NCBI RefSeq assembly: GCF_027923765.1
Contig: NZ_AP026709.1
Location: forward strand, 2,785,501-2,849,500
Reading direction: 5' to 3'
DNA: 64,000 nucleotides
DNA from: Pseudodesulfovibrio nedwellii
Lineage (GTDB): Bacteria > Desulfobacterota > Desulfovibrionia > Desulfovibrionales > Desulfovibrionaceae
Both the position numbers and the translations under genes were made by a program. Shown here piece after piece: positions 53,255-60,908 of this stretch (within the stretch, counting starts at the first letter, position 1; the number at the start of each line of letters is the position of its first letter). The notes under the pieces are model-generated. The model ran no database searches. It was not told the DNA's origin and was given only the letters and a program-made list of their open reading frames with translations.

Positions 53255-53578
53255 ATGAACCGCACAATCGTTCTGGCTGTTGCAACGGCCCTGATTACTA
53301 TTTTTGCAGTTTCCATGGCCTTTGCCATGGGTGGCGGCAATGCTCGCAAGGGTAAGTTCCTTTACCGTAAAAACTGTCGCACCTGTCATAATGGTGCTCA
53401 AGCTCCTGATTTGAGTCCGGCAGACCGCACCCAGGCTGAATGGACTGCCACGTTCAAGGACACAAGCAAGATCAAGTGTTCCGGCGACTGGTCGGCTTCT
53501 GAAAAAGATCTGAACGACATTTTCACGTATCTGCATGATTTTGCCAAGGACTCTCCGTCCCCGGCCAAGTGTAGCTAG
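53255..53578 (+). CDS. Monoheme periplasmic cytochrome c
   Basis: 107 residues. Signal peptide (MNRTIVLAVATALITIFAVSMAFA), one CxxCH (CRTCH, residues 41-45) and two further cysteines (C75 and the penultimate C106) that could form a disulfide. Small class-I-like cytochrome c that would shuttle electrons to or from the molybdoenzyme encoded next. GGAGG precedes the ATG. First gene behind the dyad-containing promoter, so likely the head of the operon. Confidence 0.88.
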   Translation: MNRTIVLAVATALITIFAVSMAFAMGGGNARKGKFLYRKNCRTCHNGAQAPDLSPADRTQAEWTATFKDTSKIKCSGDWSASEKDLNDIFTYLHDFAKDSPSPAKCS

Positions 53579-53723
53579 TTGGATGTTCTCGGTGCCCATG
53601 GTGGCATCTGAAGTTTCAGCGTGTATTGAATAGACTTTTTTCGACACCTCGTCCGAGGGTGGCGAGGTGTCGGGGAAAGGTTGTGACACCAACGGTAGAA
53701 TGGTGGATATCCGGAGGTATTTA

Positions 53724-55919
53724 GTGTCGAATTCCAAGCAGACAATGTCCCGTCGTGATTTCTTCAAGGCTACTGGCCTTGTGGCGGCAGGGGCGGTAGG
53801 CGGTCCGGCTTTGCTGGGTGGTCTGAAAAAGGCGCAGGCGGCTCCCATGGCGGCCCCGGCCTGGGACTCAATGTTCTCGGCCTGCGATATGTGCTTCAAC
53901 AAGTGCGGCCTTATCGCCCGTGTTGAAAATGGGGTCATCAAGAAGCTCGATCCCAATCCCAAATTTCTCAAGTCGCGGGGCATGTTATGTGCCCGCGGTA
54001 ACGCCGGTCTTGATCAAGTCTATGATCCAGATCGTCTCAAGCATCCCTTGCTCAGAAAGGGAGCACGCGGCGAAGGCAAGTGGCAGCGCATCCCGTGGGA
54101 TGAAGCCATTGATATGGCCGCGCAGAAAATGGAAGAAGTTCGCAAGAAGTATACCCCCTGCGGTCATCTTTTCTCTGCCGGAACTGATCTGCATTCTCAG
54201 TTCGTGGGCCGATTTGCCGAAGTCTATGGTTCGTTTAATGTCACGTCCCATGAATCACTGTGTCTGGTTTCGGGCAACAGGGCGTTTCTTGATACTTACG
54301 GAGAAGTGCCGTTCCCGGACGTGCTCAACTCCAAGTATATTGTTATGGCAGGTGCCAACCGCTTCGAAGCTTTGGTCACCCCGGATTCCATTGATCTGAT
54401 GACCGCCATCCGTGAGAACGGGTGCAAGTTGGTGACGCTTGATCCGCGTTATACCAAGACTGCGGCTCTTTCAGATGAATGGTATCCCATCAGGCCCGGT
54501 TCGGATATGGCGTTCATGCTCGCTCTGGCACATGTCATCATCGGTGAAAAACTTTACGACCCGCAGTGGATCGAAGAGAAGACATACGGTCTCGAACAAC
54601 TGGCCGAACATGTCAAACAGTATACCCCCGGTTTTGCTGCAGAAGAGTGTGGCATTCCGGCAGAAGATATCACCCGCATGGCCCGTGAGCTGGCAGCGGC
54701 CGCTCCGGCAGCCATGATTTATCCCGGTCGTCGGACCTCGGATTATGAAGATTCCACCCAGATTCGTCGCAGTTTCGCCATTGTGAATGGTTTGCTCGGC
54801 AACTGGGACCGTCCTGGTGGTCTGTTGGCCGCTCGGCAGGTTGGCCTTAAGGGCGTTTCCTATGACGCCCCGTGGTATGATGAGAATCAGGACGATCGTA
54901 TCGACGCCCACAAGGTGCCGATGATGTTTGAGCACGAAGGTTCATTCCTGGTCACGCGTGATTCCGTACTGGCCGAGGACCCATATCCCATCAAGGGGTG
55001 GTTCGTGTACAAGACCAACCCTATGGGCACGGCTCCCAATCGGAAGAAGACCATCGAGATGATGAACAAGATGGATTTTGTCACCGTGGTGGATATCGCC
55101 ATGTCCGATACAGCGTGGTACGCCGATCTGGTCTTGCCGTCACAAAGTTATCTGGAGCGGACTGATCCGTGCGCCGGTTTGCAGGGTTCAGTGGCTTGCG
55201 CCTGTGTGGTCAAACGCGACCCACTCATTAAGTCCTTGTACGAATCCCGTTCACTCTTCGACATTATGAAGGGTATTGCCGGCAAGATGGACCTCGGTGA
55301 ATATTTTGATTTCACTATTGAGGAATTTCGCAAGAAGCAGACTCGTGAGATCCCGGAGGCCCTTGAGGTCATGGACCGCGACGGCGTCTACTACAATCCG
55401 TCCAAGGTGTACGGCATTTATGAAGGTCGGATTTACAAGACCTTGTCCAAGAAGGTGGAGCTGTATAACCAGCGGTACGAGCAGATGGGGCTTGATCCCA
55501 TGCCCATCTATACCCCGCCAACCAAGGTTCCCAAGAATCAATTCCGTCTGGTGCTCGGCCGAGATGCGGCAGTCACCCAGACCTCGACGATCAACAATAA
55601 ATTGCTCAATGAATTTAATCCTACCAATACGTTGTGGCTCAACACTGAAGCGGCAGGAAAGCTTGGTATTGCGGATGGTGATCTGGTCGAAGTGACCAGT
55701 CCTGTTGGCAGGCAGGAGCTCAAGGCCGAAGTGACGGACAGAATTAGAAAAGACACGGTGTACATGCTTTCGGGCTACAATACCTTGTCCACCATGCAGA
55801 CTTTGTCCCATGCCAACGGCGCATCTATCAATGAATTGTTGGATGATGATTATGACACGATTACAGGGAATGCTTCCATGCATACGACCTTTGTCACCGT
55901 AACAAGGAAGGTGGCGTAA
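53724..55919 (+). CDS. Tat-exported molybdopterin oxidoreductase, thiosulfate/polysulfide reductase-like catalytic subunit
   Basis: 731 residues from GTG 53724, chosen because GGAGG lies six bases upstream; an in-frame GTG at 53667 has none. The twin-arginine signal SRRDFFK is at 9-15. The [4Fe-4S] cysteines are C54, C57, C61, C89, and SHESLC (C180) probably supplies the Mo ligand. Bis-MGD binding segments (NRFEALVTPDSIDLM, YPGRRTSDYED, NTLWLNTEAAGKLGI) match the PhsA/PsrA group, length close to PhsA. Predicted to act on thiosulfate, polysulfide or a related sulfur oxyanion. Overlaps the B subunit start by one base. Confidence 0.85.
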   Translation: MSNSKQTMSRRDFFKATGLVAAGAVGGPALLGGLKKAQAAPMAAPAWDSMFSACDMCFNKCGLIARVENGVIKKLDPNPKFLKSRGMLCARGNAGLDQVYDPDRLKHPLLRKGARGEGKWQRIPWDEAIDMAAQKMEEVRKKYTPCGHLFSAGTDLHSQFVGRFAEVYGSFNVTSHESLCLVSGNRAFLDTYGEVPFPDVLNSKYIVMAGANRFEALVTPDSIDLMTAIRENGCKLVTLDPRYTKTAALSDEWYPIRPGSDMAFMLALAHVIIGEKLYDPQWIEEKTYGLEQLAEHVKQYTPGFAAEECGIPAEDITRMARELAAAAPAAMIYPGRRTSDYEDSTQIRRSFAIVNGLLGNWDRPGGLLAARQVGLKGVSYDAPWYDENQDDRIDAHKVPMMFEHEGSFLVTRDSVLAEDPYPIKGWFVYKTNPMGTAPNRKKTIEMMNKMDFVTVVDIAMSDTAWYADLVLPSQSYLERTDPCAGLQGSVACACVVKRDPLIKSLYESRSLFDIMKGIAGKMDLGEYFDFTIEEFRKKQTREIPEALEVMDRDGVYYNPSKVYGIYEGRIYKTLSKKVELYNQRYEQMGLDPMPIYTPPTKVPKNQFRLVLGRDAAVTQTSTINNKLLNEFNPTNTLWLNTEAAGKLGIADGDLVEVTSPVGRQELKAEVTDRIRKDTVYMLSGYNTLSTMQTLSHANGASINELLDDDYDTITGNASMHTTFVTVTRKVA

Positions 55920-56659
55920 TGGCACAGCAACTTGCGATGGTCATTGATGCGGCCAAGTGCATCGACTGCAAAGCGTGTGTGGCTGCTTGTAAGGTCGCCA
56001 ACGAAGTCCCGGAAGGGCAGTGGCGCAACTGGATCAAGCCGACCAGCGATACGCCGATCCCCGGCAAAAAGAGTGATACCGCCAGGTTCCAGCCCGGCGC
56101 ATGCATGCATTGTGAAAATCCCACCTGTGTGGACGCCTGTCCTACTGGTGCGACGTACAAGGATAAGGAAACTGGTGAAGTCGTTATCAACGAAGGGCTG
56201 TGTATTGGATGCGGTAACTGTATTCCTGCTTGCCCCTACGACGCCCGTTTCCGTAACGAGGTCAAGCGCAAGGCGGATAAGTGTAATTACTGTCCCGAGC
56301 GCAGGGCCGCAGGCATCCCTCCGGCATGTGTGGACACTTGTCCCACCAAGGCTCGGGTCTTTGGTGATATCAACGATCCCGACAGCGAAGCCGGTCGTCT
56401 GTACCTTAAAAATAAGGACCGTCTGACTCGTGTGGCCGCCAAGACCGACACCAAACCGAATATGTTTTATCTTGGTAACCCCGGTCCGGGCGAGTGGGGC
56501 CGTGAGGCTGTCATTCCTGCATCCATGATCGCCATGAAGCAGTCCGCACCATTGGTGAAGGGTATCGTGGCTCTGTCCGGTCTGGGCGTGCTTGCCATGC
56601 TTGGCCGTCAACTGTTTGTCGGCTCTGATTCCGACCACAAGGAGGATTCCGATGCCTAA
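55919..56659 (+). CDS. Four-cluster ferredoxin subunit of the molybdoenzyme (PhsB/PsrB-like)
   Basis: 246 residues. Sixteen cysteines in four [4Fe-4S] motifs (CIDCKACVAAC, CMHCENPTCVDAC, CIGCGNCIPAC, CNYC...C with CVDTC) carry electrons between the catalytic subunit and the membrane subunit. A C-terminal hydrophobic helix (VKGIVALSGLGVLAMLGRQLFVG) anchors it, as in FdnH-type subunits and unlike soluble PsrB. No Tat signal, so it is co-exported with the catalytic subunit. TAATG coupling to the gene before. Confidence 0.93.
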   Translation: MAQQLAMVIDAAKCIDCKACVAACKVANEVPEGQWRNWIKPTSDTPIPGKKSDTARFQPGACMHCENPTCVDACPTGATYKDKETGEVVINEGLCIGCGNCIPACPYDARFRNEVKRKADKCNYCPERRAAGIPPACVDTCPTKARVFGDINDPDSEAGRLYLKNKDRLTRVAAKTDTKPNMFYLGNPGPGEWGREAVIPASMIAMKQSAPLVKGIVALSGLGVLAMLGRQLFVGSDSDHKEDSDA

Positions 56660-57371
56660 CACCATGTTCAAACGACACGATAAAACCGATATATTCATTC
56701 ATTGGTTCAACGCGGCCTGCTGGCTGCTGCTTCTGCTGACAGGAGTGGGGCTGATCCAGCACCCGGCCATTGATCCGTTTGGTTCCGGCTATCCCGAGGC
56801 TATGCGTGCCATGGTGGGCGGCGGGGCAAATCTGCTGGTCATCCATGAAATTATCGGTCTGCTTTGGCTGGCCGGGTTCGTTTTCTATCTTTTCGTCAAC
56901 TTCAAGGGTGCCCGGTTTTTTCTGGCAGAAGTGTTCGCCGTCAGTCCGGCGCGTGACATGGCGTGGATGATCAAGAAAATGGTGCTCATGACGCTGGGAC
57001 CCAAGGCTCTCAAAGTAATGGGTATGGACCCGGAATTGCCGGATCAGGGATATTACAACATGGGCCAGAAGGCGTTTGCTCAGGCATCGGTTGTGGGCGG
57101 TATCGTTATCGCTGTGACCGGTGTGATCATGTTCATGTCCGACCGGACTTTCGGGGCCGAGTCCACAGGCATGATTGGCTGGGCTGTGACCCTGCACTTC
57201 ATTGCCGTGGGGTTGGTTTTCGCGGGATTGCTGGTTCATATCTATATGGCTGCCATTTCGCCGGAAGAACGTCCTGGCTTTAAGTCCATGTTCACCGGCG
57301 TGGTTCCCGGCAACTATGCCAAACATCATCACCGCCTGTGGTGGGAAAAGGTCAAAACCGAGGGTGAATAG
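56652..57371 (+). CDS. Cytochrome b subunit, FdnI/PhsC type
   Basis: 239 residues from ATG 56652, which overlaps the preceding stop and has AAGGAGGA six bases upstream. Four or five membrane helices with heme-ligand histidines in DIFIHWFNAACWLLLLLTG, LVIHEIIGLLWLAGF and WAVTLHFIAVGLVFAGLLVHIY. A diheme b-type quinone-reactive subunit like FdnI of formate dehydrogenase N and PhsC of thiosulfate reductase. Links the menaquinone pool to the periplasmic enzyme, probably electrogenically. Confidence 0.92.
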   Translation: MPNTMFKRHDKTDIFIHWFNAACWLLLLLTGVGLIQHPAIDPFGSGYPEAMRAMVGGGANLLVIHEIIGLLWLAGFVFYLFVNFKGARFFLAEVFAVSPARDMAWMIKKMVLMTLGPKALKVMGMDPELPDQGYYNMGQKAFAQASVVGGIVIAVTGVIMFMSDRTFGAESTGMIGWAVTLHFIAVGLVFAGLLVHIYMAAISPEERPGFKSMFTGVVPGNYAKHHHRLWWEKVKTEGE

Positions 57372-57452: not shown

Positions 57453-58550
57453 ATGTATAGGAAATTGTTTGCCGCAGTCATGATGCTGGTGTTCGCTCTG
57501 GTGGCGACAACCGGTGTTGCAATGGCTGATGAAGCCAAGAAGTCGAAGTTCAAGGAATTCCACTCCATCGTGGATTACAAATTCGTGGCTAAGTACGCCA
57601 AGATGCCCAAGCCCAAGGGTGCGATGATCGTTGATTCTAGGCCGTATAAGCCGAAATATGTCGCTGGGTACATCCCGACTGCCGTGTCAATTCCGACCAG
57701 TCAGTTCGACAAGATGGTGGATAAGTTGCCCGCCAACAAGGACGATCTCCTTGTTTTCTATTGTGGCGGCTTTCATTGCGGACTCTCCCATAAAGCGGCC
57801 TGGAAGGCAGAAAAGCTTGGCTATACCAACGTCCATGTCTACGCCGCGGGTTTCCCGGATTATAAGAAGCACGCGTTGTACTACTCCATCGGTCTGGAAA
57901 ATCTCCACGGCAAGATGGCCAACGGCGAAAAATACGCATTGATCGACGCCCGTCCATACCAGAAGTATTTGGCTGGCGCGATCCCGTCCGCTATCGGCAT
58001 TCCTGAAAAGGATTTTGCCGACAAGCGCGGTATGTTGCCAATTGATAAAGCTGAAGTCACACTGGTTTACTATTGCGGCGGCTACAAATGTGCCCTGTCG
58101 CACAAGTCCGCAATCAAGGCCCGTTACCTTGGCTACAAGAAAGTTGTGGTTGCTGAAGCCGGTTATCCCGGTTGGAAGGAAATGTTTGGTGGTGCCGATG
58201 TGGCCGTCAAGGCCGGTGAAGCTGAAGGCGCAGTCGATGCCGAGTGGTTTCTGAAGACCATCAAGGAAAATCCAGATTCCATTCTGCTGATTGATGTGCG
58301 TGATCCTGAGGAATACGCAGCCGGTCACTTCCCCTCCGCCATCAACATGCCTGTTGATATGGTTGAGAAAAAGGCCAAAGAAATTCCGACAGACAAGCCT
58401 ATCGTATTCTCCTGTGCCACGGGCGCACGAGCTGGCGAAGCCTATTACCTGTTTATGGACATGGTGCCTGATGCCAAGAATGTCTTTTATCTGGAAGCCA
58501 CTAATGATTTCGGTGAAGACAATTCTTACGAGGTTCATCCCAATAAATAG
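57453..58550 (+). CDS. Periplasmic triple-rhodanese protein
   Basis: 365 residues. Signal peptide (MYRKLFAAVMMLVFALVATTGVAMA) followed by three rhodanese domains. Active loops are CGGFHC (C104, C109), CGGYKC (C208, C213) and CATGAR (C321); the first two have the two-cysteine CxxxxC type. Rhodaneses bind sulfane sulfur as a persulfide and pass it on. Behind a thiosulfate-reductase-like complex it could receive or supply sulfane sulfur. AGGAAGGGAG precedes the ATG. Three domains in one polypeptide is unusual for a secreted protein. Confidence 0.93.
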   Translation: MYRKLFAAVMMLVFALVATTGVAMADEAKKSKFKEFHSIVDYKFVAKYAKMPKPKGAMIVDSRPYKPKYVAGYIPTAVSIPTSQFDKMVDKLPANKDDLLVFYCGGFHCGLSHKAAWKAEKLGYTNVHVYAAGFPDYKKHALYYSIGLENLHGKMANGEKYALIDARPYQKYLAGAIPSAIGIPEKDFADKRGMLPIDKAEVTLVYYCGGYKCALSHKSAIKARYLGYKKVVVAEAGYPGWKEMFGGADVAVKAGEAEGAVDAEWFLKTIKENPDSILLIDVRDPEEYAAGHFPSAINMPVDMVEKKAKEIPTDKPIVFSCATGARAGEAYYLFMDMVPDAKNVFYLEATNDFGEDNSYEVHPNK

Positions 58551-58614
58551 ATTCCAGTTGCAGAAGGTCGGATAGTCCGACCAGACGTCACACACAGACA
58601 GGCGGGGAGCAGAT

Positions 58615-59625
58615 ATGATGATACGGACATCTTCCATTGTATATTTGCTCCTCGCCTTATGTTTTTTTGGGAGTGCACCCGCCAATGCCGACGAAAATGA
58701 AGTTTGGTGGGCCGCTGCACAAGGTGAAGCCGAGCGCGAAGGGTATAAGCTTATTGACTCCAAGGGGTTGAAAGAGCTGATTGATTCAGGCGCGACGCCA
58801 CTCATTATTGATGCGCGAGCTGATTATGAGTTCTCTGCAGGGCATATCCACGGCTCAAGCAATATGGAATTTGATCTTGGCGACCGTATGGATCTGCCCG
58901 AGGCCAAGCGGGCTGTGCTCAAGGAATTGGCCGGACAGGATCAGAAAAGATTGCTGGTGGTGTATTGTCGTAGTTTCAGGTGACTGCGCAGCGGCATTGC
59001 GGCGCGCTGGGCAGCGCGTCTCGGATACACTGATGTTTATCGGTATGCAGCGGGTTTTCATGCTTGGAAAGAGACATACCCCGAACTCGTGGATGGCGTG
59101 CAGGAAGAAAAGCATATCCTGGCCGTGGGCGATACGTTTCCAGCCTGTCGGGTGGCGGTGCTGAATGGTGATGCGGATCGCGAATATCTGGAGTTACCGG
59201 AAGGGACCAAGTGGTTGCAGCTTTCTGAACTATCTGCCCGTTTTGTGCTGATCCAACTTTACAATACCATGTGTAACGACTGTGTCAGGGAAACCAAGTT
59301 GCTTTCTCGGTTTTTCAAGGATGTGGAGAACGATCCTGTCTTGGCCGGACAGCTCAAGATCATTGGGCTGGGTGTGTATGACTCGAATCATGCCGTTGTC
59401 CGTTTTAAGAAACATTACGAGGTGGCCTATCCACTGTTCTCAGATAAAAGTGGACAGATTTTCGAGTGTCTTGGGCAGGCCGAATTGCCGTTGGCCTATC
59501 TGGTTCGGGCCGAGGGCGATGGCAACTGGACCATTGAGTTGATTCGGCGCGGATATTTTGAACCGGATAGCAAGTTCTTGGATGTACTTCGGTCAGCTGT
59601 GATTCGAACTGAGGAACTGGATTAG
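58615..59625 (+). CDS. Predicted selenoprotein: exported rhodanese-thioredoxin fusion with in-frame TGA (Sec123)
   Basis: 336 residues if TGA 58981-58983 is read as selenocysteine. The frame then runs without interruption to TAG 59625. Signal peptide (1-25), rhodanese domain (about 45-155), TlpA/redoxin domain (about 165-330) with MCNDC (C220, C223). The active loop is C118-R-S-F-R-Sec123. The neighbouring triple rhodanese has Cys at exactly that place (CGGFHC, CGGYKC), and the sequence after the TGA continues the domain (GIAARWAARLGYTDVYRYAAGFHAW, given here in parts at most). An 8-bp hairpin follows at SECIS distance. GGGGAG five bases before ATG 58615. Overlaps the convergent torD-like gene. 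A nonsense mutation is the alternative, less likely because both halves stay intact. Confidence 0.82.
58984..59020 (+). promoter_or_regulatory. SECIS-like hairpin after the in-frame TGA
   Basis: GGCGCGCT (59001-59008) pairs with AGCGCGTC (59013-59020), eight pairs including one G-U, with apical loop GGGC. The loop starts 25 bases after the TGA, and G is among its first two bases, as in bacterial SECIS models bound by SelB. Confidence 0.65.
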
Positions 59626-60236
59626 ATTTTTGATACTGCTTCCAGAGTTGCCACTGTGAGGTCTGCTATACAGGTGAATATTGGATGCGGGTTCGCCTTG
59701 TTTAGCGCGTCCCGGAAATGGCGTACCCACGGAAGCATGATTGACTCGGCGAATTCGCCGCCTTGAACCGCTTGTTCACTTTGGCCGAACCAGCCTTCGG
59801 AGAGCAGGTAGAAGAGGAATTCGAGTTCAATGGTCAGATGGTCGGCGGGTTCGTTGGAGTCCAACGATATTTCAAGCCCGGCTTCCTGAAGACGAGTTTG
59901 CATGTCTAACGCACTTTGTCCCATGGTTCGGGGTGTGGTGGCGAGATGACAGGATTCATACAACGGTGCGGGAATTCCCCCGGAACCGGCAATGAACAGT
60001 CGGACATATTCGGTTTCAAGAACCGCGACGTCTTCATCCGAAAGGCTGGCTGATAATTGGTTTAAACGTTGGACCGGAGCAAGGAAGGCATCGGGGTTTT
60101 TCTGGACACTGGCAAGGAGTTCAGGCACTCCAACCTTGGCGAGATTGGCCCATTCTTCTGCATTAGGGCCACGAAATACGGTGACACACAGTTCCAATAC
60201 ATTGAGTAAATGAAGTTTTGATTGAGATATGGACAT
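59622..60236 (-). CDS. TorD/DmsD-family molybdoenzyme chaperone
   Basis: 204 residues from ATG 60236 (AAAGGAT upstream); a longer frame to 60302 has no ribosome site. All-helical TorD fold with the family segment around EYVRLFIAGSGGIPAPLYESCH and the C-terminal EFAESIMLPWVRHFRDAL. Such chaperones bind the Tat signal of the catalytic subunit and hold it until molybdenum cofactor is inserted. Close to the molybdoenzyme operon but convergent with it, so it has its own promoter in the region shared with the CsoR-type gene. Confidence 0.88.
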   Translation of the reverse strand: MSISQSKLHLLNVLELCVTVFRGPNAEEWANLAKVGVPELLASVQKNPDAFLAPVQRLNQLSASLSDEDVAVLETEYVRLFIAGSGGIPAPLYESCHLATTPRTMGQSALDMQTRLQEAGLEISLDSNEPADHLTIELEFLFYLLSEGWFGQSEQAVQGGEFAESIMLPWVRHFRDALNKANPHPIFTCIADLTVATLEAVSKI

Positions 60237-60260
60237 TTTGAATCCTTTTGTCGGCAGTGA

Positions 60261-60284
60261 TTTATACCGTACTACAGTACGGTA
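60261..60284. promoter_or_regulatory. 9-bp dyad between torD-like and CsoR/CstR-like genes
   Basis: TACCGTACT-AC-AGTACGGTA (60265-60284) overlaps a minus-strand TATAAA element (60261-60266) that could be the torD -10. It is a candidate operator for the adjacent repressor. Its TACC-GGTA spacing (12 bases) differs from that of the 53120 site (7 bases). Confidence 0.5.
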
Positions 60285-60334
60285 AAGTTTGAGACCCGGC
60301 AACGGGAACTTGCCCTGAAGTCAAGGAGAATGAC

Positions 60335-60628
60335 ATGGAATCAGCAGCAACAGTTGAAGAACAGAAAATTAAGAAAAACGTTTTGTCTCGTATGAAGCGG
60401 ATCGAAGGGCAGGTGCGTGGTATTCAGGGTATGATTGAGGCAGGCAAGGAATGCCAGGATATTCTGGTTCAGGTTCGGGCTGTCCGCTCTGCTTTGCAAT
60501 CCGCCAATAAGTTGATCTTGAAACGGTACATGTTGAGATGCTACGCCGATGCCATGGAGGGTGAAACTGATGAAAAAGAGGCTTTGGATAAATTGATCAA
60601 GGTTTTGACCGGTTTTATTGAAGGTTAA
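60335..60628 (+). CDS. CsoR/CstR-family transcriptional repressor, probably persulfide-responsive
   Basis: 97 residues, DUF156 fold: MKRIEGQVRGIQGMIEAGKECQDIL then RAVRSALQSANKLI. Cysteines C40 and C69 occupy the two thiol positions, but the residue four before the second, histidine in copper-sensing CsoR, is Tyr65. A Cys/Cys pair without that His fits the persulfide sensor CstR, and the rhodanese-rich neighbourhood agrees. Copper sensing is unlikely; formaldehyde or nickel types would need other residues. AAGGAG precedes the ATG. Followed by the EF-hand gene. Confidence 0.88.
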   Translation: MESAATVEEQKIKKNVLSRMKRIEGQVRGIQGMIEAGKECQDILVQVRAVRSALQSANKLILKRYMLRCYADAMEGETDEKEALDKLIKVLTGFIEG

Positions 60629-60650
60629 TATAACGAGACTCGGAGAGTAT

Positions 60651-60908
60651 ATGAAAAAAATGTTTCTAGCCTTTGTATTGGTTCTCATTGCGAGTCAGCC
60701 TGTTTTAGCCAATACAAATTATAATGTCTGCTTCAATTCTTTGGATGCGGATGTGAATGGGACCATAACCAAAGGTGAGTTCTTGGTGGCGTTTCCCAGT
60801 GGAGAGTTGGCAATTTTTGAAAAGGTCGACACCAACGCGGATAGTGCGGTGGACCACGAAGAATGGGAAGCCTACAAGACGGAACAGGGGTTTGAAGAAA
60901 ACCATTGA
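60651..60908 (+). CDS. Small exported EF-hand protein
   Basis: 85 residues from ATG 60651 (CGGAGA upstream). Signal peptide (MKKMFLAFVLVLIASQPVLA), then two EF-hand loops: DADVNGTITKGE and DTNADSAVDHEE, both with Asp/Asn/Glu at the calcium positions. A calcium-binding periplasmic protein. Co-directional with the CsoR-type gene at 22 bases and probably part of the same transcript, but a functional link is unproven. Confidence 0.8.
   Translation: MKKMFLAFVLVLIASQPVLANTNYNVCFNSLDADVNGTITKGEFLVAFPSGELAIFEKVDTNADSAVDHEEWEAYKTEQGFEENH

Follow-up and report, generated by a model that had tools for sequence, protein, structure and literature searches.

Rhodaneses that contain selenocysteine (Sec) have been described before. 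In the part of PMC13188914 that concerns them, five Sec-rhodanese forms are listed, of which forms 1-4 have the motifs UxxS, UxxG, CxU and UxxG, and form 5 is TsoB (NCBIfam NF045694), a rhodanese/DsbD fusion-like selenoprotein that is ascribed there to Haft and Tolstoy 2025. Here we analyse a further candidate, a gene at 58615..59625 of the window, by which we mean the whole 64-kb stretch of DNA under study. We conclude, with a probability of about 0.93, that it encodes a UGA-decoded (Sec) protein within a sulfur-reductase operon; Sec insertion in vivo is what we infer from evidence at the level of sequence, namely the frame, the position of the codon, its exchange with Cys, the Sec genes, selection and the operon. 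Such a protein would add a mis-annotated selenoprotein to respiratory sulfur metabolism and would link selenium to a strongly conserved sulfur-reductase operon.

The interrupted gene and its two domains

A single frame runs from the ATG at 58615 to the stop at 59625, and its sole interruption is the TGA at 58981-58983, codon 123. On readthrough, the predicted product would consist of a signal peptide (recognized by eye), a rhodanese domain and a TlpA/ResA-like domain, in that order. The features of the gene are as follows.

58615..59625, plus strand: putative Sec-rhodanese/TlpA-like fusion gene, 336 residues if the TGA is Sec; signal peptide by eye; orthologues found
58966..58968, plus strand: codon for Cys118, which opens the active-site loop of the rhodanese and is by convention its catalytic Cys; Cys in all 35 sequences aligned
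58981..58983, plus strand: TGA codon 123, read as selenocysteine; Cys in the Cys-form homologues
59002..59019, plus strand: core of a candidate bacterial SECIS hairpin with moderate support, a 7-pair stem whose loop GGGC starts at the 26th nucleotide after the TGA
59125..59625, plus strand: TlpA/ResA-like domain, residues about 171-336, with CNDC at residues 220-223 (59272-59283)

The active-loop region reads Y-C-R-S-F-R-TGA-L-R-S, the loop itself being C118-R-S-F-R-U123. The first-pass annotation had reported this loop, had set it beside the CGGFHC and CGGYKC loops of a neighbouring triple rhodanese, and had equated the TGA at 58981 with the second Cys of a CxxxxC loop; both motif readings are correct, and the equation is borne out by a Cys codon at that position in 12 of 50 loci. 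Its count of 214 codons after the TGA is one too many, as 213 sense codons lie between the TGA and the stop. It had further described those codons as the rest of the rhodanese fold followed by a TlpA-like domain with a CxxC motif. The domains are upheld by Pfam, which places rhodanese PF00581 at residues 52-153 (62.5 bits against a cut-off of 22.2) in a match that spans the TGA, and the thioredoxin-fold family AhpC-TSA, PF00578, at residues 197-289. The CxxC is present here, as CNDC, but is a feature of 31 of the 35 aligned relatives only, being absent in L030-L033.

An AlphaFold2 model made from the 35-row alignment has a mean pLDDT of 86 and a pTM of 0.55, a value at which its domain arrangement is unreliable. 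Structure searches with Foldseek and VIA-align liken the C-terminal domain of the model to ResA and related thiol-disulfide oxidoreductases. This thioredoxin domain dominates the lists, with VIA-align rows covering the protein from residue ~154 onward and a rhodanese-like chain appearing, poorly superposed, in 2 of 50 Foldseek rows, and the assignment of the rhodanese fold therefore rests on Pfam.

Six relatives in the same operon place (L034-L039) were matched over the rhodanese part only, and in four of these (L034, L036, L038 and L039) an in-frame TGA stands at the position of codon 123. C118 and U/C123 are kept in these six as well as in the four relatives without CxxC, and the C-x4-U/C pair is found in every one of the 35 aligned rows. 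Since some relatives lack the CxxC and others the entire domain, reduction in cis cannot be obligatory. An identical protein is encoded by Pseudodesulfovibrio sp. OB3, a MAG, which places the window in or near that genus; the host genome itself is one contig of 3,762,062 bases.

Sec or stop at codon 123

Within the genus, the gene was found in 29 of 36 genomes (E <= 1e-40), and codon 123 is TGA in 24 of the 29 orthologues and TGC in 5. That all 24 interrupted orthologues have the same stop codon at the same place, with TGC in the others, excludes chance. A family-wide sample of 199 genomes, from which 30 loci were fetched, contributed 23 TGA, 6 Cys codons and 1 unmappable locus (L040, which is in no codon count). 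In a sample of the phylum, 7 of 395 genomes gave matches at E <= 1e-40: the window's own, a member of the same family with a rhodanese-only form, and five from another family, in which 2 loci have TGA and 3 have TGC. With each locus counted once, and with the exclusion of L010-L012 (judged to be repeats of genomes counted elsewhere) and of many weaker, mostly partial matches that are probably paralogues and some of which list internal TAA or TAG, the pooled set of 50 comprises 38 TGA, 12 Cys codons and 0 other codons; L041 and L042, both Cys, are distant and may be paralogues. Alignment of homologues at the TGA, suggested in the first-pass annotation, has thus returned only TGA or Cys codons. 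As far as codons can tell, Cys is an interchangeable substitute for Sec at position 123. In a tree of 54 rows, with residue 123 masked in the 47 locus rows and unmasked in the 7 database rows, 9 Sec/Cys changes are required, of which starred branches force at least 6; L041, L042, L086, P0005 and P0018 stand outside this tree, and L027, L028 and P0049 have long branches in it. Decoding of the TGA as Trp was also considered and is rejected, because the 12 uninterrupted loci, like 9 of 9 full-length database homologues, carry Cys there and not Trp.

The genome has the means to read UGA as Sec. It carries selA, selB, a tRNA-Sec gene (anticodon tca) and selD, so that the search for sel genes that had likewise been suggested came out positive. 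In the same genome, selD and three formate dehydrogenase genes (FdhA) have in-frame TGA codons of their own (L044, L048-L050). Among relatives, selB is found in 35 of 36 genomes of the genus and in 16 of 16 others, including the genomes with a Cys form (5 of 5 in the genus, 4 of 4 elsewhere), and the machinery therefore does not discriminate Sec from Cys forms.

Nonsynonymous differences are few in the codons that follow the TGA. For codons +1 to +15, comparison of 23 orthologues gave a pN of 0.087 and a pN/pS of 0.24, on the assumption of gap-free frames near the TGA; the scan of pS along the gene used the alignment. The lowest synonymous diversity of the gene is at residues 123-134, a 12-codon window that begins exactly at the TGA, where pS falls to 0.268; the median of 331 such 12-codon windows is 0.62, and the next-lowest region, at 0.311, is the gene start. 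A SECIS element must lie just 3' of the Sec UGA, and one is likely to be present here, with moderate support for the particular hairpin that we propose. Ten pairs of the hairpin as drawn are formed in 84.8% of cells across 33 distinct TGA rows. The region 15-42 nt after the TGA, which was chosen after the folds had been inspected, is more stable than its synonymous recodings are on average; this holds for each of the 33 TGA rows (mean z -0.98), which are related to each other and 4 of which are individually significant at p < 0.05. The same region is more stable than recodings in 11 of 11 TsoB loci (mean z -1.08), and in the Cys rows (n=9) the mean z is 0.00, with 3 negative. Over the whole 48 nt, mean z is -0.29 in TGA rows versus -0.18 in Cys rows. 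One pair of the hairpin is preserved in every one of the 33 rows, be it as GC, GU or AU. Its AU version accompanies R131H and A134V in the sister rows L021 and L022 and perhaps represents one event. Double changes occur in 3 pairs and 5 cells of the hairpin, versus 4 pairs and 13 cells in a control slid by +2. RNAalifold did not recover the full hairpin, the 70-nt minimum-energy fold of the window prefers another structure to the candidate, and Rfam gave nothing within the 64-kb window at gathering scores.

These observations also bear on whether the UGA might be what it appears to be. If it were a true stop, the gene would yield half a rhodanese, of 122 residues, and the TlpA part would be made from its own downstream start, for which there is an in-frame GTG at 59089. 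The database homologues have the lengths that such a division predicts: 39 of 48 span 184-203 residues, close to what the post-UGA part alone would give, and cover 39-60% of the query, and the 4 of these 39 that were read all start after the UGA. Where the source names them, the short entries are called redoxin, peroxiredoxin and such. The first product would, however, be half of a rhodanese fold, the Cys-form homologues are one chain, and conservation just past the UGA is among the highest in the gene, yet 16 of 23 orthologues have no in-frame ATG, GTG or TTG within 15 codons after the TGA. We consider two separate proteins highly improbable. A downstream restart is rejected because well-conserved codons lie before the possible starts. 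An in-frame stop might equally mark a pseudogene, a nonsense mutation or a sequencing error, an idea to which we attach next to no weight and which the orthologues already refute, since among 50 loci, taken from separate assemblies, codon 123 is TGA in 38 and a Cys codon in 12, and purifying selection acts on both sides of the TGA. The selenoprotein reading of the first-pass annotation is, in sum, strongly supported by Sec/Cys exchange, the Sec genes, purifying selection and the minimum of pS at the SECIS position.

The sulfur-reductase operon and a proposed function

The neighbours of the gene are these.

53255..53578, plus strand: small cytochrome of the c type, with which the conserved operon opens
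53667..55919, plus strand: molybdopterin oxidoreductase, PsrA/PhsA-like; closest solved match 2vpw
55919..56659, plus strand: 4Fe-4S electron-transfer subunit
56652..57371, plus strand: membrane subunit like cytochrome b561 and the formate dehydrogenase gamma subunit
57453..58550, plus strand: triple rhodanese with loops CGGFHC, CGGYKC and, third, SCATGARA (one Cys); co-conserved with the Sec protein
59622..60302, minus strand (opposite to the others): TorD/DmsD-like chaperone, conserved next gene
60335..60628, plus strand: CsoR-family regulator with Cys40/Tyr65/Cys69, persulfide-sensor (CstR)-like

The order cytochrome c, Mo oxidoreductase, Fe-S protein, cytochrome b, triple rhodanese, Sec-rhodanese, TorD-like protein (other strand) and CsoR-family regulator is conserved, with all eight genes together in 20 of 20 neighbourhoods. 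Of 14 further neighbourhoods, 13 keep the run of five genes that starts with the Mo subunit and ends with the Sec-rhodanese, and the remaining one is cut by a contig end; the regulator was not found in 4 of the 14, all of the other family, nor the TorD gene in 2 more. Pooled, the reductase and the triple rhodanese are linked to the gene in 33 of 34 loci, the 20 + 14 neighbourhoods having been chosen for holding the Sec-rhodanese gene. Among solved structures, the nearest to the catalytic subunit at 53667-55919 is 2vpw, which the PDB names a thiosulfate reductase; against the profile for the thiosulfate reductase PhsA, NF012032, it scores 524.4 bits, under the NCBIfam cut-off of 694. Near matches to 58000-60700 were absent from plasmid records, and promoter and terminator scans gave scores near chance.

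CstR-type persulfide sensors have the CsoR fold and two Cys, without the copper-ligand His. At the three positions that are Cys, His and Cys in the aligned copper sensor, the regulator at 60335-60628 carries Cys, Tyr and Cys (20 of 20 loci), and to judge by these residues it fits a persulfide sensor of the CstR kind. A palindrome, TACCGTACTACAGTACGGTA, lies at 60265-60284 between the torD-like gene and the regulator and is a possible operator. Its strict form occurs in 6 of 35 sequences scanned, and a second copy is absent from the 64-kb window, and the palindrome accordingly lends no support to the idea that the regulator controls the main operon. A small EF-hand protein is encoded after the regulator, at 60654-60908, in part of the loci.

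In rhodaneses the persulfide is carried, by a convention that we take to hold here, on the first Cys of the loop, which is C118, position 123 being the sixth loop residue. Sec123 would then be the partner of the persulfide Cys and not, as the first-pass annotation had it, the carrier itself; the loop layout gives that role to C118. We envisage that UGA 123 is decoded by SelA, SelB and tRNA-Sec under the direction of a SECIS just 3' of it, and that the protein is probably exported to the periplasm. There, C118 would be loaded with sulfane sulfur, with polysulfide, thiosulfate or the triple rhodanese next door as the donor, and U123 would attack the persulfide to release sulfide and leave a C118-U123 selenenylsulfide. 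The thioredoxin-fold domain would re-reduce this pair, or another periplasmic thiol might do so where the domain is degenerate or missing, and the protein would in this way serve the PsrA/PhsA-like molybdenum reductase encoded alongside it. Judged from its sequence and context, periplasmic persulfide/polysulfide handling for the Mo reductase is the likely role. That the protein performs just this sulfur-transfer chemistry with C118 and U123 for the Mo sulfur reductase is a proposal to which we give somewhat less than even odds, both the chemistry and the substrate being read from sequence. A more tentative generalization is that loop position 6 is a recurrent Sec site, used here, in TsoB and in the relatives with a rhodanese part only, and that Sec at this site makes a sulfurtransferase into a persulfide reductase able to resolve itself, in which the Cys takes the sulfur, the Sec releases sulfide, and a fused or external thioredoxin fold resets the pair. 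On this view the protein would give a periplasmic Mo sulfur-reductase system a sulfur-feeding arm that depends on selenium, an arrangement of which we found no description. Because natural Sec and Cys forms exist in close relatives, the advantage of Sec in sulfane-sulfur chemistry is directly testable.

Two other functions for a Sec protein at this locus deserve consideration; they share with sulfur transfer the claim that Sec is present, and our confidences in the three consequently overlap. The protein may move no sulfur itself and instead maintain the triple rhodanese, or other partners, in the reduced state, as a thiol-disulfide (selenenylsulfide) oxidoreductase. The invariant C-x4-U/C pair and the fused thioredoxin fold would suit such an activity, and TsoB, too, joins a Sec rhodanese to a part that is DsbD-like by its NCBIfam name. 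Retention of a rhodanese fold with its catalytic Cys argues against it, however, as do an operon that points to sulfane sulfur and a thioredoxin part that is dispensable in some lineages, and we think it rather unlikely. Unlikely to a greater degree, in our estimation, is an oxidative or detoxifying protein that clears periplasmic persulfides or polysulfide and is unneeded for respiration through the Mo enzyme. The persulfide-sensor-like regulator conserved alongside would be in keeping with detoxification, and CstR homologues, according to the relevant part of PMC10318464, often repress rhodaneses. Yet the gene is linked to the PsrA/PhsA-like reductase almost throughout, and the four loci of the other family keep the operon without the regulator. 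We therefore continue to favour persulfide handling for the Mo reductase.

Comparison with described systems

The first-pass annotation had presented the domain fusion as one not known to be described. We likewise found no description of the TlpA fusion, which is unseen in the examined part of the selenoprotein table of PMC13188914; Haft and Tolstoy 2025 or Haft and Gwadz 2023 may contain one. Novelty does not extend to the Sec site, as Sec at exactly loop position 6 is already known from TsoB.

TsoB is among the nearest described systems. It shares with our protein a homologous rhodanese domain (97.9 bits over residues 8-154 of the query) and the joining of that domain to a thiol-redox partner. 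In all 11 TsoB loci the second Sec falls at U123 in the alignment, and the TsoB profile is matched at E <= 1e-5 by 35 of 35 aligned relatives. TsoB differs in having Sec at both ends of the loop (UxxxxU in 11 of 11 loci, against CxxxxU here) and a C-terminal part that is DsbD-like by its NCBIfam name, where our protein has a TlpA/ResA-like domain. The score of 97.9 bits is accordingly far under the NF045694 cut-off of 805 and involves only positions 7-152 of the 572 in the profile, and the protein reaches no other NCBIfam cut-off either. Loci above the TsoB cut-off were found in 11 of 297 genomes of a class sample (L056-L066); two genomes, G032 and G043, each hold TsoB plus an operon-linked Sec-rhodanese.

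Sec-rhodanese forms 1-4, as given in that part of PMC13188914, likewise have Sec in a rhodanese domain, but their motifs would place it at the first loop position or two residues after a Cys, not five after. The thiol-disulfide oxidoreductases ResA, TlpA and CcmG have the fold and the CxxC of the C-terminal domain, which here stands behind a rhodanese and has kept the CxxC in most relatives but not in all. PsrABC and PhsABC resemble the operon in their catalytic subunit, to judge by the 2vpw match, and in their Fe-S subunit. With the subunit make-up of PsrABC as the basis of comparison, the operon differs in its b561/FdnI-type membrane subunit, its extra small cytochrome c and its two operon-fixed rhodanese genes. 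Sec-rhodaneses as such, and Sec at loop position 6 as the second Sec of TsoB, are thus already known; what is apparently new is the CxxxxU form, its fusion to a TlpA-like domain, and its place in an operon with a PsrA/PhsA-like Mo reductase and a triple rhodanese.
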